This document shows, in pieces, positions 7,819-18,258 of a DNA stretch of 21,113 nucleotides. Location of the stretch: positions 1-21,113 of IMG/VR virus record IMGVR_UViG_3300007708_000031. The stretch is one strand, 5' to 3'. The position numbers and the translations under genes were made by a program. This DNA is from a virus. The notes under the pieces were generated by a model that made no database searches, was not told the origin of the DNA, and was given only the letters and a program-made list of their open reading frames with translations. Position 1 is the stretch's first letter; each line of letters starts with the position of its first letter.

Positions 7819-8487
7819 TTAACAATCCAATTTCCATCCTGATTTAGTACATGAGGATCTTCCCTTTTTTATGTGATGAAAAGTTGAAGCTGTTAAACCA
7901 GTGTGTTTAGCCATTTCAGTACAAGATAAATACTGTTTTTCTTCTGTATTAACATTAAACCAACTTAATGCATTTTTTTTATTTTTTGACTCAGACATTT
8001 TGTTCCGACTATCTGAAGACATTTTATAGCCTTTTATTGCCTTGTATCCATTTTTATTTTTAGTATCCCAAGCTTTTTTAGCCCGAGCCTTTCTATCTTC
8101 TTTTGTAAGGTTTGCAAAACAATGATGTCCATTTTTTTTATAATACTCTTTTAAAGAGTTAGATATCTTTTCTTTTACTTCATTAGACTGAACACCTCCA
8201 TTACCTCCCTCAGTTAAATTGTAACCATTTGGTGAAATCGTGTTTAGCGTCTTAATGTAATACTTTTCTTTTTCAAAACACTCTTCAATAGAATTGCAAT
8301 ATTCAAGAATTTCCCAAGAAAAAGATTCAGGTCCGTATTTACGCAAAGCGTTTTTAAAAAGATAAAAATATTGAGACTTAGAATGAGATTTGTAAACATG
8401 CGTTCTAATCCTTTTCTCTAAAGTAAGAGTAGTGTAACCAACATATTTTTTACCGTTGATTTTGTTAGTTGATAAGTATATAAGCAT
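7819..8487 (-). CDS. GIY-YIG homing endonuclease (freestanding, SegA-like)
   Basis: 222 aa. The GIY-YIG nuclease core lies at residues ~2-90: IYLSTNKINGKKYVGYTT, an Arg helix LEKRIRTHV, and the catalytic Glu region FEKEKYYI followed by SPNGYNLTEGGNGG. Next come NUMOD3-like repeats (VKEKISNSLKEYY, RNKMSESKNKKN) and a C-terminal NUMOD1-like HTH (CTEMAKHTGLTASTFHHIKKG). It would nick or cut a homing site in a phage genome lacking the gene. It sits between two basic-protein genes with no intron flanks visible, so it appears to be a freestanding selfish element. Confidence 0.92.
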   Translation of the reverse strand: MLIYLSTNKINGKKYVGYTTLTLEKRIRTHVYKSHSKSQYFYLFKNALRKYGPESFSWEILEYCNSIEECFEKEKYYIKTLNTISPNGYNLTEGGNGGVQSNEVKEKISNSLKEYYKKNGHHCFANLTKEDRKARAKKAWDTKNKNGYKAIKGYKMSSDSRNKMSESKNKKNALSWFNVNTEEKQYLSCTEMAKHTGLTASTFHHIKKGRSSCTKSGWKLDC

Positions 8488-13571: not shown

Positions 13572-14087
13572 ATGTCAAGTTTCCTGCACTACTTATGTTT
13601 ATCTAAATAGGCAATAGCTTTCTTTATAATTCTTGGGTTATCTTTAAAGAAACCTAATCCACAATTACAGTTGTTGCACAATAACGCTCTGACCTTTCCT
13701 GTTTGATGACAATGATCTACTGCAAAGTCTTTAGAATAATCATCTCTATGTATATTACATATAGCACAAGAATAGTTTTGAGAATGTAATTTAGCATCAT
13801 ACTCCTCAGTAGTTAAATTGTATTTTAACTTCCTTTGATATGCTTTATGGTAATCTATGTTTCTGGTAATGTTAGCACAAAACTTACAGGGAGAATTAAA
13901 TCTATACTGCTTGTTATTTTTCACATCTTTATGTATGTGAAATTCAGTAACTGGTAACACTTCGTTACACTTATTACATTTTCTTGTTGCGCCTGATGCT
14001 ATCAGCTCTTCTAACTTTTCTTTTGTCATATCCTTTTTTTTTATAAAGATGCAACTTATTATTCGTAATGTCAAGAAAAATGTCAAG
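13572..14087. repeat. ATGTCAAG direct repeats flanking the HNH gene
   Basis: ATGTCAAG occurs at 13572-13579, 14068-14075 and 14080-14087; the endonuclease gene and its promoter lie between the first and second. The arrangement suggests an insertion boundary or a homing/recombination site, but an 8-mer can recur by chance in A/T-rich DNA. Confidence 0.35.
13589..14029 (-). CDS. Endonuclease VII-type HNH homing endonuclease
   Basis: 146 aa from ATG 14027-14029. The N-terminus has a zinc-like CNKCNEVLPVTEFHIHK...PCKFC segment (residues ~18-51). The C-terminal half has the recombination endonuclease VII signature: YNLTTEEYDAKLHSQNYSCA, then AVDHCHQTGKVRALLCNNCN with the DH-CH catalytic/zinc residues, and GLGFFKDNPRIIKKAIAYL. 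It cleaves DNA, most likely as a selfish homing enzyme, since it lies alone and antisense within the structured non-coding region. A longer in-frame opening up to 14245 exists but lacks family similarity. On the minus strand, TTGAC then ATCTTTAT around 14044-14075 may be its promoter. Confidence 0.88.
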   Translation of the reverse strand: MTKEKLEELIASGATRKCNKCNEVLPVTEFHIHKDVKNNKQYRFNSPCKFCANITRNIDYHKAYQRKLKYNLTTEEYDAKLHSQNYSCAICNIHRDDYSKDFAVDHCHQTGKVRALLCNNCNCGLGFFKDNPRIIKKAIAYLDKHK

Positions 14088-14198
14088 AAGTTTTTAGCGC
14101 AATAAACTTGACTCAAGAACGCCTGTAACCCACACCTCCACAGAGATACACAAGATTCACCTACACCCAAAAGGACCATCAGGTCGACTCCAGCAAGA
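14088..14198 (+). ncRNA. Possible 3' part of the structured RNA region
   Basis: No gene is present. It contains GACC-ATCA-GGTC (14174-14185) and leads into a clear plus-strand terminator at 14199. A plus-strand transcript therefore ends here, consistent with the RNA starting near 13140 and being split by the antisense HNH gene. That continuity is inferred. Confidence 0.35.
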
Positions 14199-14231
14199 TG
14201 GTTAGTAGATGTAACCAACTGATTTTTTTTT
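14199..14231 (+). terminator. Intrinsic terminator
   Basis: TGGTTA 14199-14204 pairs with TAACCA 14212-14217 around a 7-base loop, followed by ACTGA and nine T (14223-14231). It ends the non-coding region just before the promoter at 14229. Confidence 0.65.
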
Positions 14232-14259
14232 GCCGAATAAACCAAGCTTTGTATATTTG
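14229..14259 (+). promoter_or_regulatory. Promoter for the basic gene at 14290
   Basis: TTTG 14229-14232, 19 bp, TATATTTG 14252-14259. The -33 box uses the last T bases of the preceding terminator. The start codon is 30 bp downstream. Confidence 0.7.
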
Positions 14260-16315: not shown

Positions 16316-16676
16316 ATATTTGTAAAATTATTTGGAATGACATTTAGAACGGTTGTAGGTTTGCTCCATCATTCAACGGAATAGATACTGACAAATTGAA
16401 ATAACATTTAGGAGTCACACACTCGAAGTATTCCCCACATGTACTGATGCGATATCAGAACTAAGTGCGGAGAGAAAAGCTAGTAAGTAATACAGCAAGT
16501 GTGCCTAGTGTCACGGGGAAAAGACGCATCCGAGAAAACACGTCAAGGTAGAGTTAACCAATCACCTACACTATAGCTAAGAGCCTAACTGAGTAAGGGT
16601 GGTATCTTAGAGAGATTGGGACACATAACGGGAAAGTGTATAAAGCCTGTAGTTCTTTGAAATATCGGAAATAATC
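16316..16676 (+). ncRNA. Structured non-coding segment before the tRNA-like element
   Basis: No gene is seen. Local pairings include CTGAT-GCGAT-ATCAG (16444-16458), GTGT...ACAC enclosing CGG/CCG around 16508-16543, TAAGA/TCTTA around 16578-16609 and ACAC/GTGT around 16622-16639. These are fewer and weaker than at 13140-13560, so a functional RNA is only a possibility. The segment may be the 5' part of one long leader transcript that ends in the tRNA-like element, or simply untranslated leader. It is not a recognisable tmRNA or RNase P RNA. Confidence 0.3.
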
Positions 16677-16736
16677 TGAAACGCTAGGAGAGGTATCTCG
16701 TGAGAGGTATCTAGGGGTTCGAGTCCCCACGTTTCG
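16677..16736 (+). ncRNA. tRNA-like cloverleaf with miniature D and anticodon arms
   Basis: TGAAACG 16677-16683 pairs with CGTTTCG 16730-16736 (7-bp acceptor-like stem, first pair T-G). GGGG-TTCGAGT-CCCC at 16714-16728 is a canonical T-arm with a 7-nt TTCGAGT loop. Between them are two tiny hairpins built from the direct repeat GAGAGGTATCT: GAGA-GGTA-TCTC and AGA-GGTA-TCT. There is no anticodon arm of normal size, so it is not a working tRNA. If the tRNA 3'-processing enzyme cut after the discriminator position (16737), a 22-nt leader would remain before the start at 16760, matching the 22-24 nt left by the hammerhead ribozymes downstream. It could instead be a degenerate tRNA. Confidence 0.5.
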
Positions 16737-16759: not shown

Positions 16760-16981
16760 ATGCAACAATTTATCTTGAGAGAAAATGTACTAACGAACAA
16801 TTTCTTACTATTAGCTGATGAGGACAAAGTATTCAAAGGAAATTACATTGCCATCGTAAAGGAATACACCTATGCTAACGAGTGGTCGGACAAGGTGTCG
16901 GTGAAAAGATTCAGGTCACACGATAGACTGAATGAATACTTAGACAAGCACTATCCTGAATTTACTTACGAGGTTTACTGA
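16760..16981 (+). CDS. Unrecognised small protein, first gene of the ribozyme-punctuated operon
   Basis: 73 aa: beta-like start (MQQFILRENVLTNNFLLLAD), then GNYIAIVKEYTYANEW, a basic segment KVSVKRFRSHDRLNEYL, and the end YPEFTYEVY. It is probably a compact alpha/beta fold; no family is recognised. Its last bases are part of the first hammerhead ribozyme: the stem I strand GGTTTA and the stop TGA lie within the ribozyme, and this stop is inside the catalytic CTGATGA. The leader (22 nt) follows the tRNA-like element. Confidence 0.7.
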   Translation: MQQFILRENVLTNNFLLLADEDKVFKGNYIAIVKEYTYANEWSDKVSVKRFRSHDRLNEYLDKHYPEFTYEVY

Positions 16982-17023
16982 TGAGAGTTGAGTACTCGAA
17001 ACGGGGTTCGCCCCGTATAAACC
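16972..17023 (+). ncRNA. Hammerhead ribozyme 1 (type I)
   Basis: A complete catalytic core. Stem I is GGTTTA 16972-16977 with TAAACC 17018-17023. CTGATGA lies at 16978-16984. Stem II is GAGT 16985-16988 / ACTC 16994-16997 with a 5-nt loop. GAAA lies at 16998-17001. Stem III is CGGGG/CCCCG with a TTCG loop (17002-17015), extended by the A17001-T17016 pair. The cleavage base is A17017. Every conserved hammerhead position (C3 U4 G5 A6 N7 G8 A9, G12 A13 A14, A15.1-U16.1, H17) is satisfied. Self-cleavage after 17017 would leave a 23-nt leader before the next start at 17041. Confidence 0.92.
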
Positions 17024-17040
17024 AATTAATAATTAATGCC

Positions 17041-17331
17041 ATGAGCAAAAATGAAATGCATGACGCAATTGAGAACTTCATCAACTATTACACCTCTGAT
17101 GAAGAGACAGCAGTAAGAATGTTTGAAACCCTTAAGGACTACATGGACGAGGTGTACCAAGAGCCACAAGATGTTATGGTCTTCACCTACGGGGTGTACA
17201 AGGGACAGGATATCTTTTGGAAAAAAGCTATGGGAGATATGTCTCCGACAAACGAGTTCATTCCCATTAACGAGTTACACCTTTGGGTGAATAAGTACAG
17301 GAACTTCGGTTGGGAGGTAAAGGTTAACTGA
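17041..17331 (+). CDS. Unrecognised acidic protein, second gene of the operon
   Basis: 96 aa from ATG 17041 (MSKNEMHDAIENFINYYTSD). It is helical in the first half, with EETAVRMFETLKDYMDEVYQ, then a mixed second half (VFTYGVYKGQDIFWKKAMGD, LHLWVNKYRNFGWEVKV). An in-frame ATG at 16981 would add 20 residues encoded by the ribozyme itself. I prefer 17041 because cleaved mRNA begins at 17018. The stop codon TGA 17329-17331 lies inside the core of ribozyme 2. No family is recognised. Confidence 0.7.
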   Translation: MSKNEMHDAIENFINYYTSDEETAVRMFETLKDYMDEVYQEPQDVMVFTYGVYKGQDIFWKKAMGDMSPTNEFIPINELHLWVNKYRNFGWEVKVN

Positions 17332-17375
17332 TGAGTCTTAGAGAGACGAAACACGGGTTCGCCCGTGTATTAACT
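17322..17375 (+). ncRNA. Hammerhead ribozyme 2 (type I)
   Basis: Stem I is GGTTAA 17322-17327 with TTAACT 17370-17375 (outer pair G-T). The core CTGATGA lies at 17328-17334. Stem II is GTCT/AGAC (17335-17338 with 17344-17347, 5-nt loop). GAAA lies at 17348-17351. Stem III is CACGGG-TTCG-CCCGTG (17352-17367), then T17368 and cleavage base A17369. Stems II and III differ in sequence from ribozyme 1 but keep pairing, which is compensatory variation. Cleavage leaves a 24-nt leader before 17394. Confidence 0.92.
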
Positions 17376-17393
17376 AATAAATATTTTTATCTT

Positions 17394-17549
17394 ATGAACA
17401 CAAACGAAAAAACAATTAACGCTCTGTCTCTAATAGGTATTGGAGGAGGGCTTACCCTAGTGGCTTTGAGCATGACCTTCTTCGGAGGGGTATTCATTAC
17501 ACTATTCACCTTATCATTAACAGCTAATTTATTTTTAACTAAAATCTAA
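17394..17549 (+). CDS. Small membrane protein, third gene of the operon
   Basis: 51 aa from ATG 17394 (MNTNEKTINALSLIGIGGGL). Residues ~9-48 are almost wholly hydrophobic (LSLIGIGGGLTLVALSMTFF, then GGVFITLFTLSLTANLFL), best read as two closely spaced membrane helices around a Gly-Gly turn. An in-frame ATG at 17331 would add 21 residues from ribozyme 2; the shorter form fits the cleaved mRNA. The function is unknown. Confidence 0.65.
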   Translation: MNTNEKTINALSLIGIGGGLTLVALSMTFFGGVFITLFTLSLTANLFLTKI

Positions 17550-17560
17550 TCAATAAACAC

Positions 17561-17902
17561 ATGGAAAACATGAACGTATTTCAATTGAACATTGGGTTGA
17601 ACAATAACCCGTACACCTTCGAGAAGATTACTGAGGCCTTGGTTGCCGCATTCGAGGGAGAAATAGTCGCTACCCGTGAACACATGGGAGTGTACGAAGG
17701 TAGACCTGAACCGACCTTGGTAGCTAAGATTATAACCCAAATGGACGAGGAAAGTGCAAGAGTACTTACCACCATGATGTGCATGAAGTTTACTCAGGAG
17801 TGCATAGGAATGAAGTTCAACGAAGAGGGAACGCTAGTGTATAACCCTGACTTCAAAGGGGAACAATACACCTTCGACTCTGATTACTTCATAGAGTTCT
17901 AA
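17561..17902 (+). CDS. Unrecognised protein, fourth gene of the operon
   Basis: 113 aa: MENMNVFQLNIGLNNNPYTF, a helix EKITEALVAAFEGEIVA, then TLVAKIITQMDEESARVLTT and a C-terminal beta-like, acidic part ending in DSDYFIEF. It looks like a ferredoxin-like alpha/beta domain; no family is recognised. It follows the membrane gene after 11 bp without a ribozyme between them. A second in-frame ATG at 17570 is possible. Its TAA stop (17900-17902) directly abuts ribozyme 3. Confidence 0.7.
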   Translation: MENMNVFQLNIGLNNNPYTFEKITEALVAAFEGEIVATREHMGVYEGRPEPTLVAKIITQMDEESARVLTTMMCMKFTQECIGMKFNEEGTLVYNPDFKGEQYTFDSDYFIEF

Positions 17903-17960
17903 GGTTAACTGACGAGGGTTCAATACCCGAAACACAGGACTTCGGTCTTGTGTCTTAACC
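17903..17960 (+). ncRNA. Hammerhead ribozyme 3 (type I)
   Basis: Stem I is GGTTAA 17903-17908 with TTAACC 17955-17960 (perfect). The core CTGACGA lies at 17909-17915 (C at position 7, where any base is allowed). Stem II is GGGT/ACCC (17916-17919 with 17925-17928). GAAA lies at 17929-17932. Stem III is CACAGGAC-TTCG-GTCTTGTG (17933-17952, one G-T pair). T17953 follows and the cleavage base is C17954 (the favoured GUC-type site here reads GTC). Cleavage leaves a 22-nt leader before 17977. Confidence 0.92.
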
Positions 17961-17976
17961 AAATAATTAATAACAC

Positions 17977-18258
17977 ATGGAACGTATTACTAAACTACAG
18001 AAGCAGATTGCCAATGCTCACATGAGAGCAAATCGAGAGGGTTCATTCAGTAACCCCAAGGTATCATCGATGGAGGAAATGAAGGAGGCCATGTTGAAGG
18101 GAGAGACCTTCAATGTGATTTATGAGGAAATCGCATTCCGCTACGCCTCGATGACTAGCCTGATGATGGCTAGCGTGCTAGACCACGAGAGCAAGGCTTA
18201 CACACAGGCTGTGTATAAGGGCTTCAAGAACGTACTTAATTCAATCGACATTAAATAA
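17977..18258 (+). CDS. Unrecognised helical protein
   Basis: 93 aa, mostly helical: MERITKLQKQIANAHMRANR, MEEMKEAMLKGETFNVIYEE, SLMMASVLDHESKAYTQAVY and KGFKNVLNSIDIK. The N-terminal basic-acidic heptad-like stretch could be a short coiled coil. No family is recognised. It is the first gene after ribozyme 3 and is followed 8 bp later by the next gene. Confidence 0.7.
   Translation: MERITKLQKQIANAHMRANREGSFSNPKVSSMEEMKEAMLKGETFNVIYEEIAFRYASMTSLMMASVLDHESKAYTQAVYKGFKNVLNSIDIK

Follow-up and report, generated by a model that had tools for sequence, protein, structure and literature searches.

Why a viral operon of short genes should carry hammerhead ribozymes at one gene boundary after another is the question raised by this locus, and what hammerheads do in phages and bacteria has been named among the open questions (de la Pena et al. 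2017, PMC6155905). We analysed a stretch of viral DNA of 21,113 nucleotides (the window; IMG/VR record IMGVR_UViG_3300007708_000031), in which three complete type I hammerheads are found at 16972–17023, 17322–17375 and 17903–17960, all coordinates being verified base by base. A preliminary description of the sequence had reported these three copies with their cut sites, leaders of 23, 24 and 22 nt before the next start codon and a UUCG loop in every stem III, and the base-by-base check agrees with it on each of these points. The elements of the operon are, in order:

16651–16670, plus strand: conserved block AGTTCTTTGA... before the tRNA-like element, with an invariant core in alignments A1 and A3.
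16677–16736, plus strand: mini-tRNA-like element before gene 1, with compensatory changes in six relatives (scrambled-T-loop controls, 0–1).
16760–16981, plus strand: gene 1, an ORF of 73 aa with a marginal PHROG match only.
16972–17023, plus strand: hammerhead copy 1, type I with a 6-bp stem I, predicted cleavage after 17017; descriptor, MFE fold, covariance model R1 63.3 bits (in the training set).
17018–17040, plus strand: predicted 23-nt leader of gene 2 after cleavage, from sequence.
17041–17331, plus strand: gene 2, 96 aa, from sequence.
17322–17375, plus strand: hammerhead copy 2, predicted cleavage after 17369; descriptor, MFE fold, R1 58.3 bits (in the training set).
17394–17549, plus strand: gene 3, 51 aa, hydrophobic by sequence.
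17561–17902, plus strand: gene 4, an ORF of 113 aa with six homologous loci.
17903–17960, plus strand: hammerhead copy 3, predicted cleavage after 17954; descriptor, MFE fold (z −3.16), R1 65.9 bits (in the training set).
17977–18258, plus strand: gene 5, an ORF of 93 aa beginning 22 nt past the copy 3 cut site, with eight homologous loci.

Copy 1 is made up of a stem I pairing 16972–16977 with 17018–17023, the core CTGATGA (16978–16984), stem II (16985–16997), the GAAA segment (16998–17001) and stem III (17001–17016, GGGG-UUCG-CCCC); the predicted cut after A17017 would leave 23 nt before the ATG at 17041. The core of copy 2 occupies 17328–17334, with a predicted cut after A17369 and the ATG at 17394, and copy 3 has the core CTGACGA (17909–17915), a predicted cut after C17954 and the ATG at 17977. 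The core C3UGANGA...GAAA...UH is present in all three copies and is adjoined by helices I, II and III, of which helix I is open, with an A15.1–U16.1 pair and H at position 17; the helices measure 6/4/7, 6/5/8 and 6/4/10 bp in copies 1, 2 and 3, respectively, according to the descriptor. For each copy, the MFE fold is the full three-stem hammerhead (z −1.9 to −3.2). By itself, the bare core pattern says little, with seven matches in the window and 2.1 expected; the full descriptor, which asks for the core, GAAA, N-U-H and a minimum of 4 bp per stem, matches the window at exactly these three copies, and 400 dinucleotide-shuffled versions of it not once. The stop codons of genes 1 and 2 (TGA at 16979–16981 and 17329–17331) lie within the catalytic cores of copies 1 and 2, and that of gene 4 (TAA, 17900–17902) abuts stem I of copy 3. 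The ribozyme is absent at the boundary of genes 3 and 4 and at the boundaries past gene 5, so that cutting is not required at every gene.

The primase/helicase of the window is closest to those of phages of Tenacibaculum, Cellulophaga and Flavobacterium, among others, at 35–38% identity, and a BLAST comparison of the operon DNA with known phages gave no match. Gene 2 has no Pfam match, and gene 4 matches a phage S-adenosylmethionine (S-AdoMet) lyase below threshold (18.1 bits, 28 needed). Elsewhere in the window, the minus strand carries a GIY-YIG/NUMOD3 homing-type endonuclease gene (7819–8487) and an endonuclease VII-like (HNH) gene (13589–14245), both probably mobile.

Homologues of gene 4 were found in six viral contigs, at 82–91% identity, and in all six contigs hammerheads precede homologues of operon genes. 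The copy 1 site is kept in L229–L234, with similar copies in L477 and L478; copy 2 has orthologues in L229, L233 and L234, and copy 3 has orthologues before gene 5 in L229 and L231–L234, and also in L481. Additional gene 5 homologues give a similar picture. Gene 4 is directly preceded by a ribozyme in L231–L234, this being the copy 2 ribozyme in L233 and L234, relative to which the window has gene 3 inserted downstream of copy 2, ahead of gene 4. Ribozymes at corresponding boundaries in related phages, which the preliminary description had suggested looking for, are thus present in L229–L234, and its observation that stems II and III vary yet stay paired extends to these orthologous boundaries, where the changes are compensated. 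At the copy 1 boundary, GAGU/ACUC and CGGGG/CCCCG in the window correspond to GGUC/GACC and CAGCC/GGCUG in L230, so that stems II and III are changed on both sides and remain paired; at the copy 3 boundary, the two stems differ among L229, L231 and the window, with pairing retained. This comparison is not circular, because its starting point was the genes and not the pairing of the ribozymes. Two of the relatives also carry a hammerhead with a long insert in stem III (L229 3546–3614 and L230 2079–2147; ATGAACCTATTCAGCCCC...GGGGTTCCT), which holds a short possible ORF and scores 38.9 bits.

Two pattern scans of viral contigs, together with the relatives and the window, yielded at least 193 non-redundant full hammerheads in at least 124 loci. 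Judged by their sequences, these copies form a compact subtype with a 6-bp stem I flanked by unpaired A's and a loop II of the form UNANU. Among the matches listed in the scan that left stem I free, this stem is exactly 6 bp long in 66 of 79 copies and has unpaired A's on both sides in 57 of 79, the 79 copies showing 55 distinct stem I sequence pairs. UNANU predominates in loop II; stem I has no internal loop, and the flanking A's and loop II are conserved. In alignment A2, which has 75 rows preselected for pairing, both partners vary in 13 of 15 base pairs. The 100% paired figure is circular and offers no independent proof, since the descriptor requires pairing and the rows were chosen for it; the orthologue and control tests are free of this circularity. 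When the core or tail was altered in the same descriptor, 0–1 matches were obtained, versus 120 with the true core. This result bears on the possibility that the elements have lost their catalytic activity and now act as spacers or as hairpin 3′ ends, a possibility with which the presence of strong hairpins after stop codons would agree. The catalytic core is kept while the stems vary freely, versions with an altered core are essentially absent, and the window copies have no U-tract 3′ of stem III, all of which makes a purely structural role improbable.

The covariance model R1, built from 75 copies of the subtype including the three of the window, scores these three, as members of its training set, at 58–66 bits, and phages outside the training set at 52–67 bits. 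Single copies scoring 52–60 bits were found in cultured phages not used in training, namely Methylophilales phage MEP301, Agrobacterium phage OLIVR1, Flavobacterium phage elemoB and Pelagibacter phages HTVC131P and Jormungand. Only two of about 117 pattern matches listed for prokaryotic genomes (L298 and L337) pass the full descriptor, which points to a mainly viral subtype, the viral and prokaryotic scans being unequal in size; an origin from bacterial genomes was rejected on the same count.

The preliminary description had proposed an Rfam covariance match above threshold as a check, and none was obtained: no family passes the gathering cut-offs in the window, and neither do any in 14 copy-rich loci. 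Hammerhead_1 (RF00163), which shares the core, the three helices and the open stem I with the subtype, scores its copies below the gathering value of 34; with relaxed limits, copies of L013 and L104 reach 20–30 bits (best, 30.2) and those of the window are unreported even at an E value of 10. RAGATH-1-hammerhead (RF03152) resembles the subtype in its core with a short open stem I, and among the window copies it scores only copy 2, weakly (24.9 bits, 56.3 needed), from which the 5′ hairpin part conserved in the model is missing. The failure is probably due to the short stem I without internal loop. As Rfam misses the whole subtype, its null result is not a valid refutation, and existing annotation misses the subtype because the scores fall under the Rfam cut-offs.

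The position of the copies relative to genes is very regular: in many phages they stand over the upstream stop codon or just past it, at a near-constant 20–45 nt from the following start codon. In 161 of the 193 listed copies (83%), the cleavage site is followed at 15–45 nt by an ATG from which 30 or more codons stay open, compared with 17% of positions drawn at random from these loci, and a long ORF spans the ribozyme in only two of the 193 in the sense direction and two in the antisense direction. Leader length is near-constant within most contigs: 23, 24 and 22 nt in both the window and L009, 22, 20, 21, 20 and 22 nt in L104, and 44, 45, 44, 45, 44 and 44 nt in L105. The largest array, in G006, comprises nine ribozymes within 4.3 kb, every one of them at a gene boundary, with leaders of 21, 32, 20, 21, 20, 21, 22, 21 and 34 nt. 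In L105 and L358, six to seven hammerheads with a common leader of 44–45 nt were seen in one 83-kb contig. The downstream genes are short (median, 80 aa), and no common function emerged among 107 of their proteins, which are mostly uncharacterized and short.

We consider it probable (about 0.8) that every copy is catalytically active, as a type I hammerhead of this compact subtype, and would cut the polycistronic phage transcript at the gene boundary; self-cleavage is predicted from the intact core. The arrangement given in the preliminary description, in which one gene boundary after another has a type I hammerhead and the leaders are constant, generalizes to at least 124 viral loci, and the transcript cutting that it proposed is supported by this placement and fits best. 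Against the cutting of transcripts stand the failure of any Rfam family to reach its gathering score, the boundaries that have no ribozyme, and stem I of the subtype, which lacks the internal loop or bulge that serves fast cleavage at low Mg2+ in canonical type I hammerheads. In place of that loop, loop II (UNANU) may make contact with the unpaired A's on the two sides of stem I, as the conservation of both suggests.

The stop codon of the upstream ORF was located within the core (+1) in 38 of 177 listed copies and 8–9 nt before the core (−8/−9) in 42 of 177, and in 33 of 177 it is a TAA in stem I (−3), a position partly favoured by the fixed TTAA of the first scan. Since the stop codon overlaps the core, a coupling to translation termination is suggested. 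Cleavage could then take place with regulation as its main role, a ribosome terminating in the core or initiating at the leader deciding whether cutting occurs, as in a translation-dependent switch and unlike a constitutive cutter, and the stop codon inside or next to the core in most copies, including those of the window, would suit such a switch. However, compact phage operons need a stop near the next start anyway, UGA is intrinsic to the core, and a stop is present in two of the three reading frames of GGUUAACUGA; we regard regulation as an unlikely main role, if one to be kept in mind. The core also holds an ATG (cUGAUGa) that might act as a coupled start and give N-terminally extended proteins from uncut RNA, its frame continuing without a stop into gene 2 from copy 1 and into gene 3 from copy 2. 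Over 122 copies, however, the three frames are equally frequent (44/38/40), just 14 are open through, and copy 3 has no such ATG. The frames being random, extended translation was rejected, and its probability is negligible.

For the cutting of transcripts at gene boundaries, the following course can be envisaged. The ribozyme would fold between the passing polymerase and the trailing ribosome and cut after N-U-H; a terminating ribosome would sit on the core, so that cutting and the translation of the gene upstream may be linked. At its 3′ end the upstream message would carry the hairpins of stems II and III and a 2′,3′-cyclic phosphate, an end that should impede 3′ exonucleases. The message downstream would begin with 5′-OH UUAACC... 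and have a short leader that is free of structure and open to initiation; it would be devoid of the 5′ phosphate that decay of the RNase E/RppH type uses, while the AU-rich stem I of 6 bp should allow the two products to part quickly. The products and chemistry of the cleavage would be those of established hammerhead biochemistry (PMC6155905).

For gene 1, an equivalent leader may come from the tRNA-like element, cut by host tRNA-processing enzymes. The element at 16677–16736 consists of an acceptor helix and a T-arm with GUUCGAGUC, has no D-arm and is not called by ARAGORN. A cut at its 3′ end would leave a 23-nt leader (CUAACCAAU...), matching those of the ribozymes; the element may be a substrate of RNase P/RNase Z and may define where the gene 1 message begins. 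Similar elements of 40–77 nt occur in other ribozyme-bearing loci, mostly 17–39 nt before an ATG, with 0–1 matches in scrambled T-loop controls, and elements from six loci gave no Rfam match at the gathering level. A scan for the minimal form (acceptor, AUGGUNNNA, T-arm) returned 80 candidates outside regular tRNAs, of which 39 lie 12–40 nt before an ATG. These elements may be signals for the processing of mRNA 5′ ends. Individual examples were noted in L229 (2254), L230 (967), L231 (4329), L233 (5306), L214 (684), L017 and L226 (both on the minus strand), L383, L463 and others; they are about 40–60 nt long, with AUGGUNNNA often replacing the D-arm, and often stand about 20 nt before a start codon. 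On the minus strand of L389 (8985–9637), five near-identical elements follow one another about 150 nt apart, most of them with no ORF directly after. Upstream of the first gene, a block CGG...TATAAAGCC.GCAGTTCTTTGAA, common to otherwise different phages (window 16622–16670, L088 3482–3525, L214 506–550), looks like a hairpin with a boxA-like motif. For the part GTTCTTTGA of the upstream block, an antitermination boxA was considered; as the strict pattern did not occur in the draft genomes of four prokaryotes, mostly Bacteroidota, we do not claim this reading.

The preliminary description knew of no described phage operon with several hammerheads at a fixed distance from its start codons. The view that nothing similar had been described has to be corrected: Perreault et al. 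2011 (PMC3088659) proposed the processing of long phage transcripts by clustered prophage hammerheads, and the passages concerned report tandem sets that cleaved in vitro and one set that did so in E. coli, so that the principle is already known. As in the window, those clusters place more than one hammerhead beside consecutive phage genes of the same strand; they flank single genes or short blocks. The clusters as characterized there are of mixed types I–III in prophages, whereas here a single compact type I subtype is found mostly in viral contigs, with few occurrences in genomes of prokaryotes; and neither a fixed distance to the start codon nor an overlap with stop codons belongs to that characterization, in contrast to the near-constant leaders and the arrays of up to nine seen here. 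The same account describes the HHphage hammerhead of haloviruses HF1/HF2, which similarly lies 13 nt before a phage start codon, with a 5′ end mapped to the cleavage site, but which is presented as a single copy at the first gene of the transcript, a high-salt variant with an archaeal host. The theta ribozymes of gut phages (PMC10879173) are likewise self-cleaving phage RNAs that process phage transcripts, but they have an HDV-like fold and act mainly on phage tRNA transcripts, not mRNA leaders.

Tandem copies would also yield matching 5′-OH and 2′,3′-cyclic phosphate ends, from which cleavage and ligation could produce circular RNAs or a mobile RNA element, as the hammerheads of plant retrozymes do. 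The copies here do not share the sequences of stems II and III, the short genes beside them are not the same ones, and their positions follow the start codons; the part of the work of Perreault et al. that deals with such products records a search in which none were detected (PMC3088659). The RtcB ligase was not found in 19 phage records, which may be fragments and whose hosts may supply one; RtcB-linked circularization was rejected, and a retrozyme-like fate appears highly improbable.

The type I hammerhead of this operon is thus, by its sequence, ordinary in kind, yet it belongs to a distinct, widespread and very regularly placed phage subtype. In the open-licence literature of PubMed Central, no account was found of the subtype, the constant leaders or the stop-codon overlap; what is new is the subtype, these fixed leaders and this overlap, the array size of up to nine and the mini-tRNA-like element, which maybe does the same job for gene 1. 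The near-constant distance to the start codon, the built-in stops, the arrays of up to nine and the cultured members make the mRNA-processing hypothesis directly testable by 5′-end mapping, and the subtype would provide a very small natural part for splitting polycistronic RNA. At somewhat less than even odds, we tentatively suggest that a class of phages may use a punctuation code made of RNA only, in which compact hammerheads and mini-tRNA-like elements would be interchangeable at gene boundaries, each setting a short leader of phage-specific length, and by which one long transcript would be converted into separate mRNAs with standardized ends, coupled to termination on the gene upstream.
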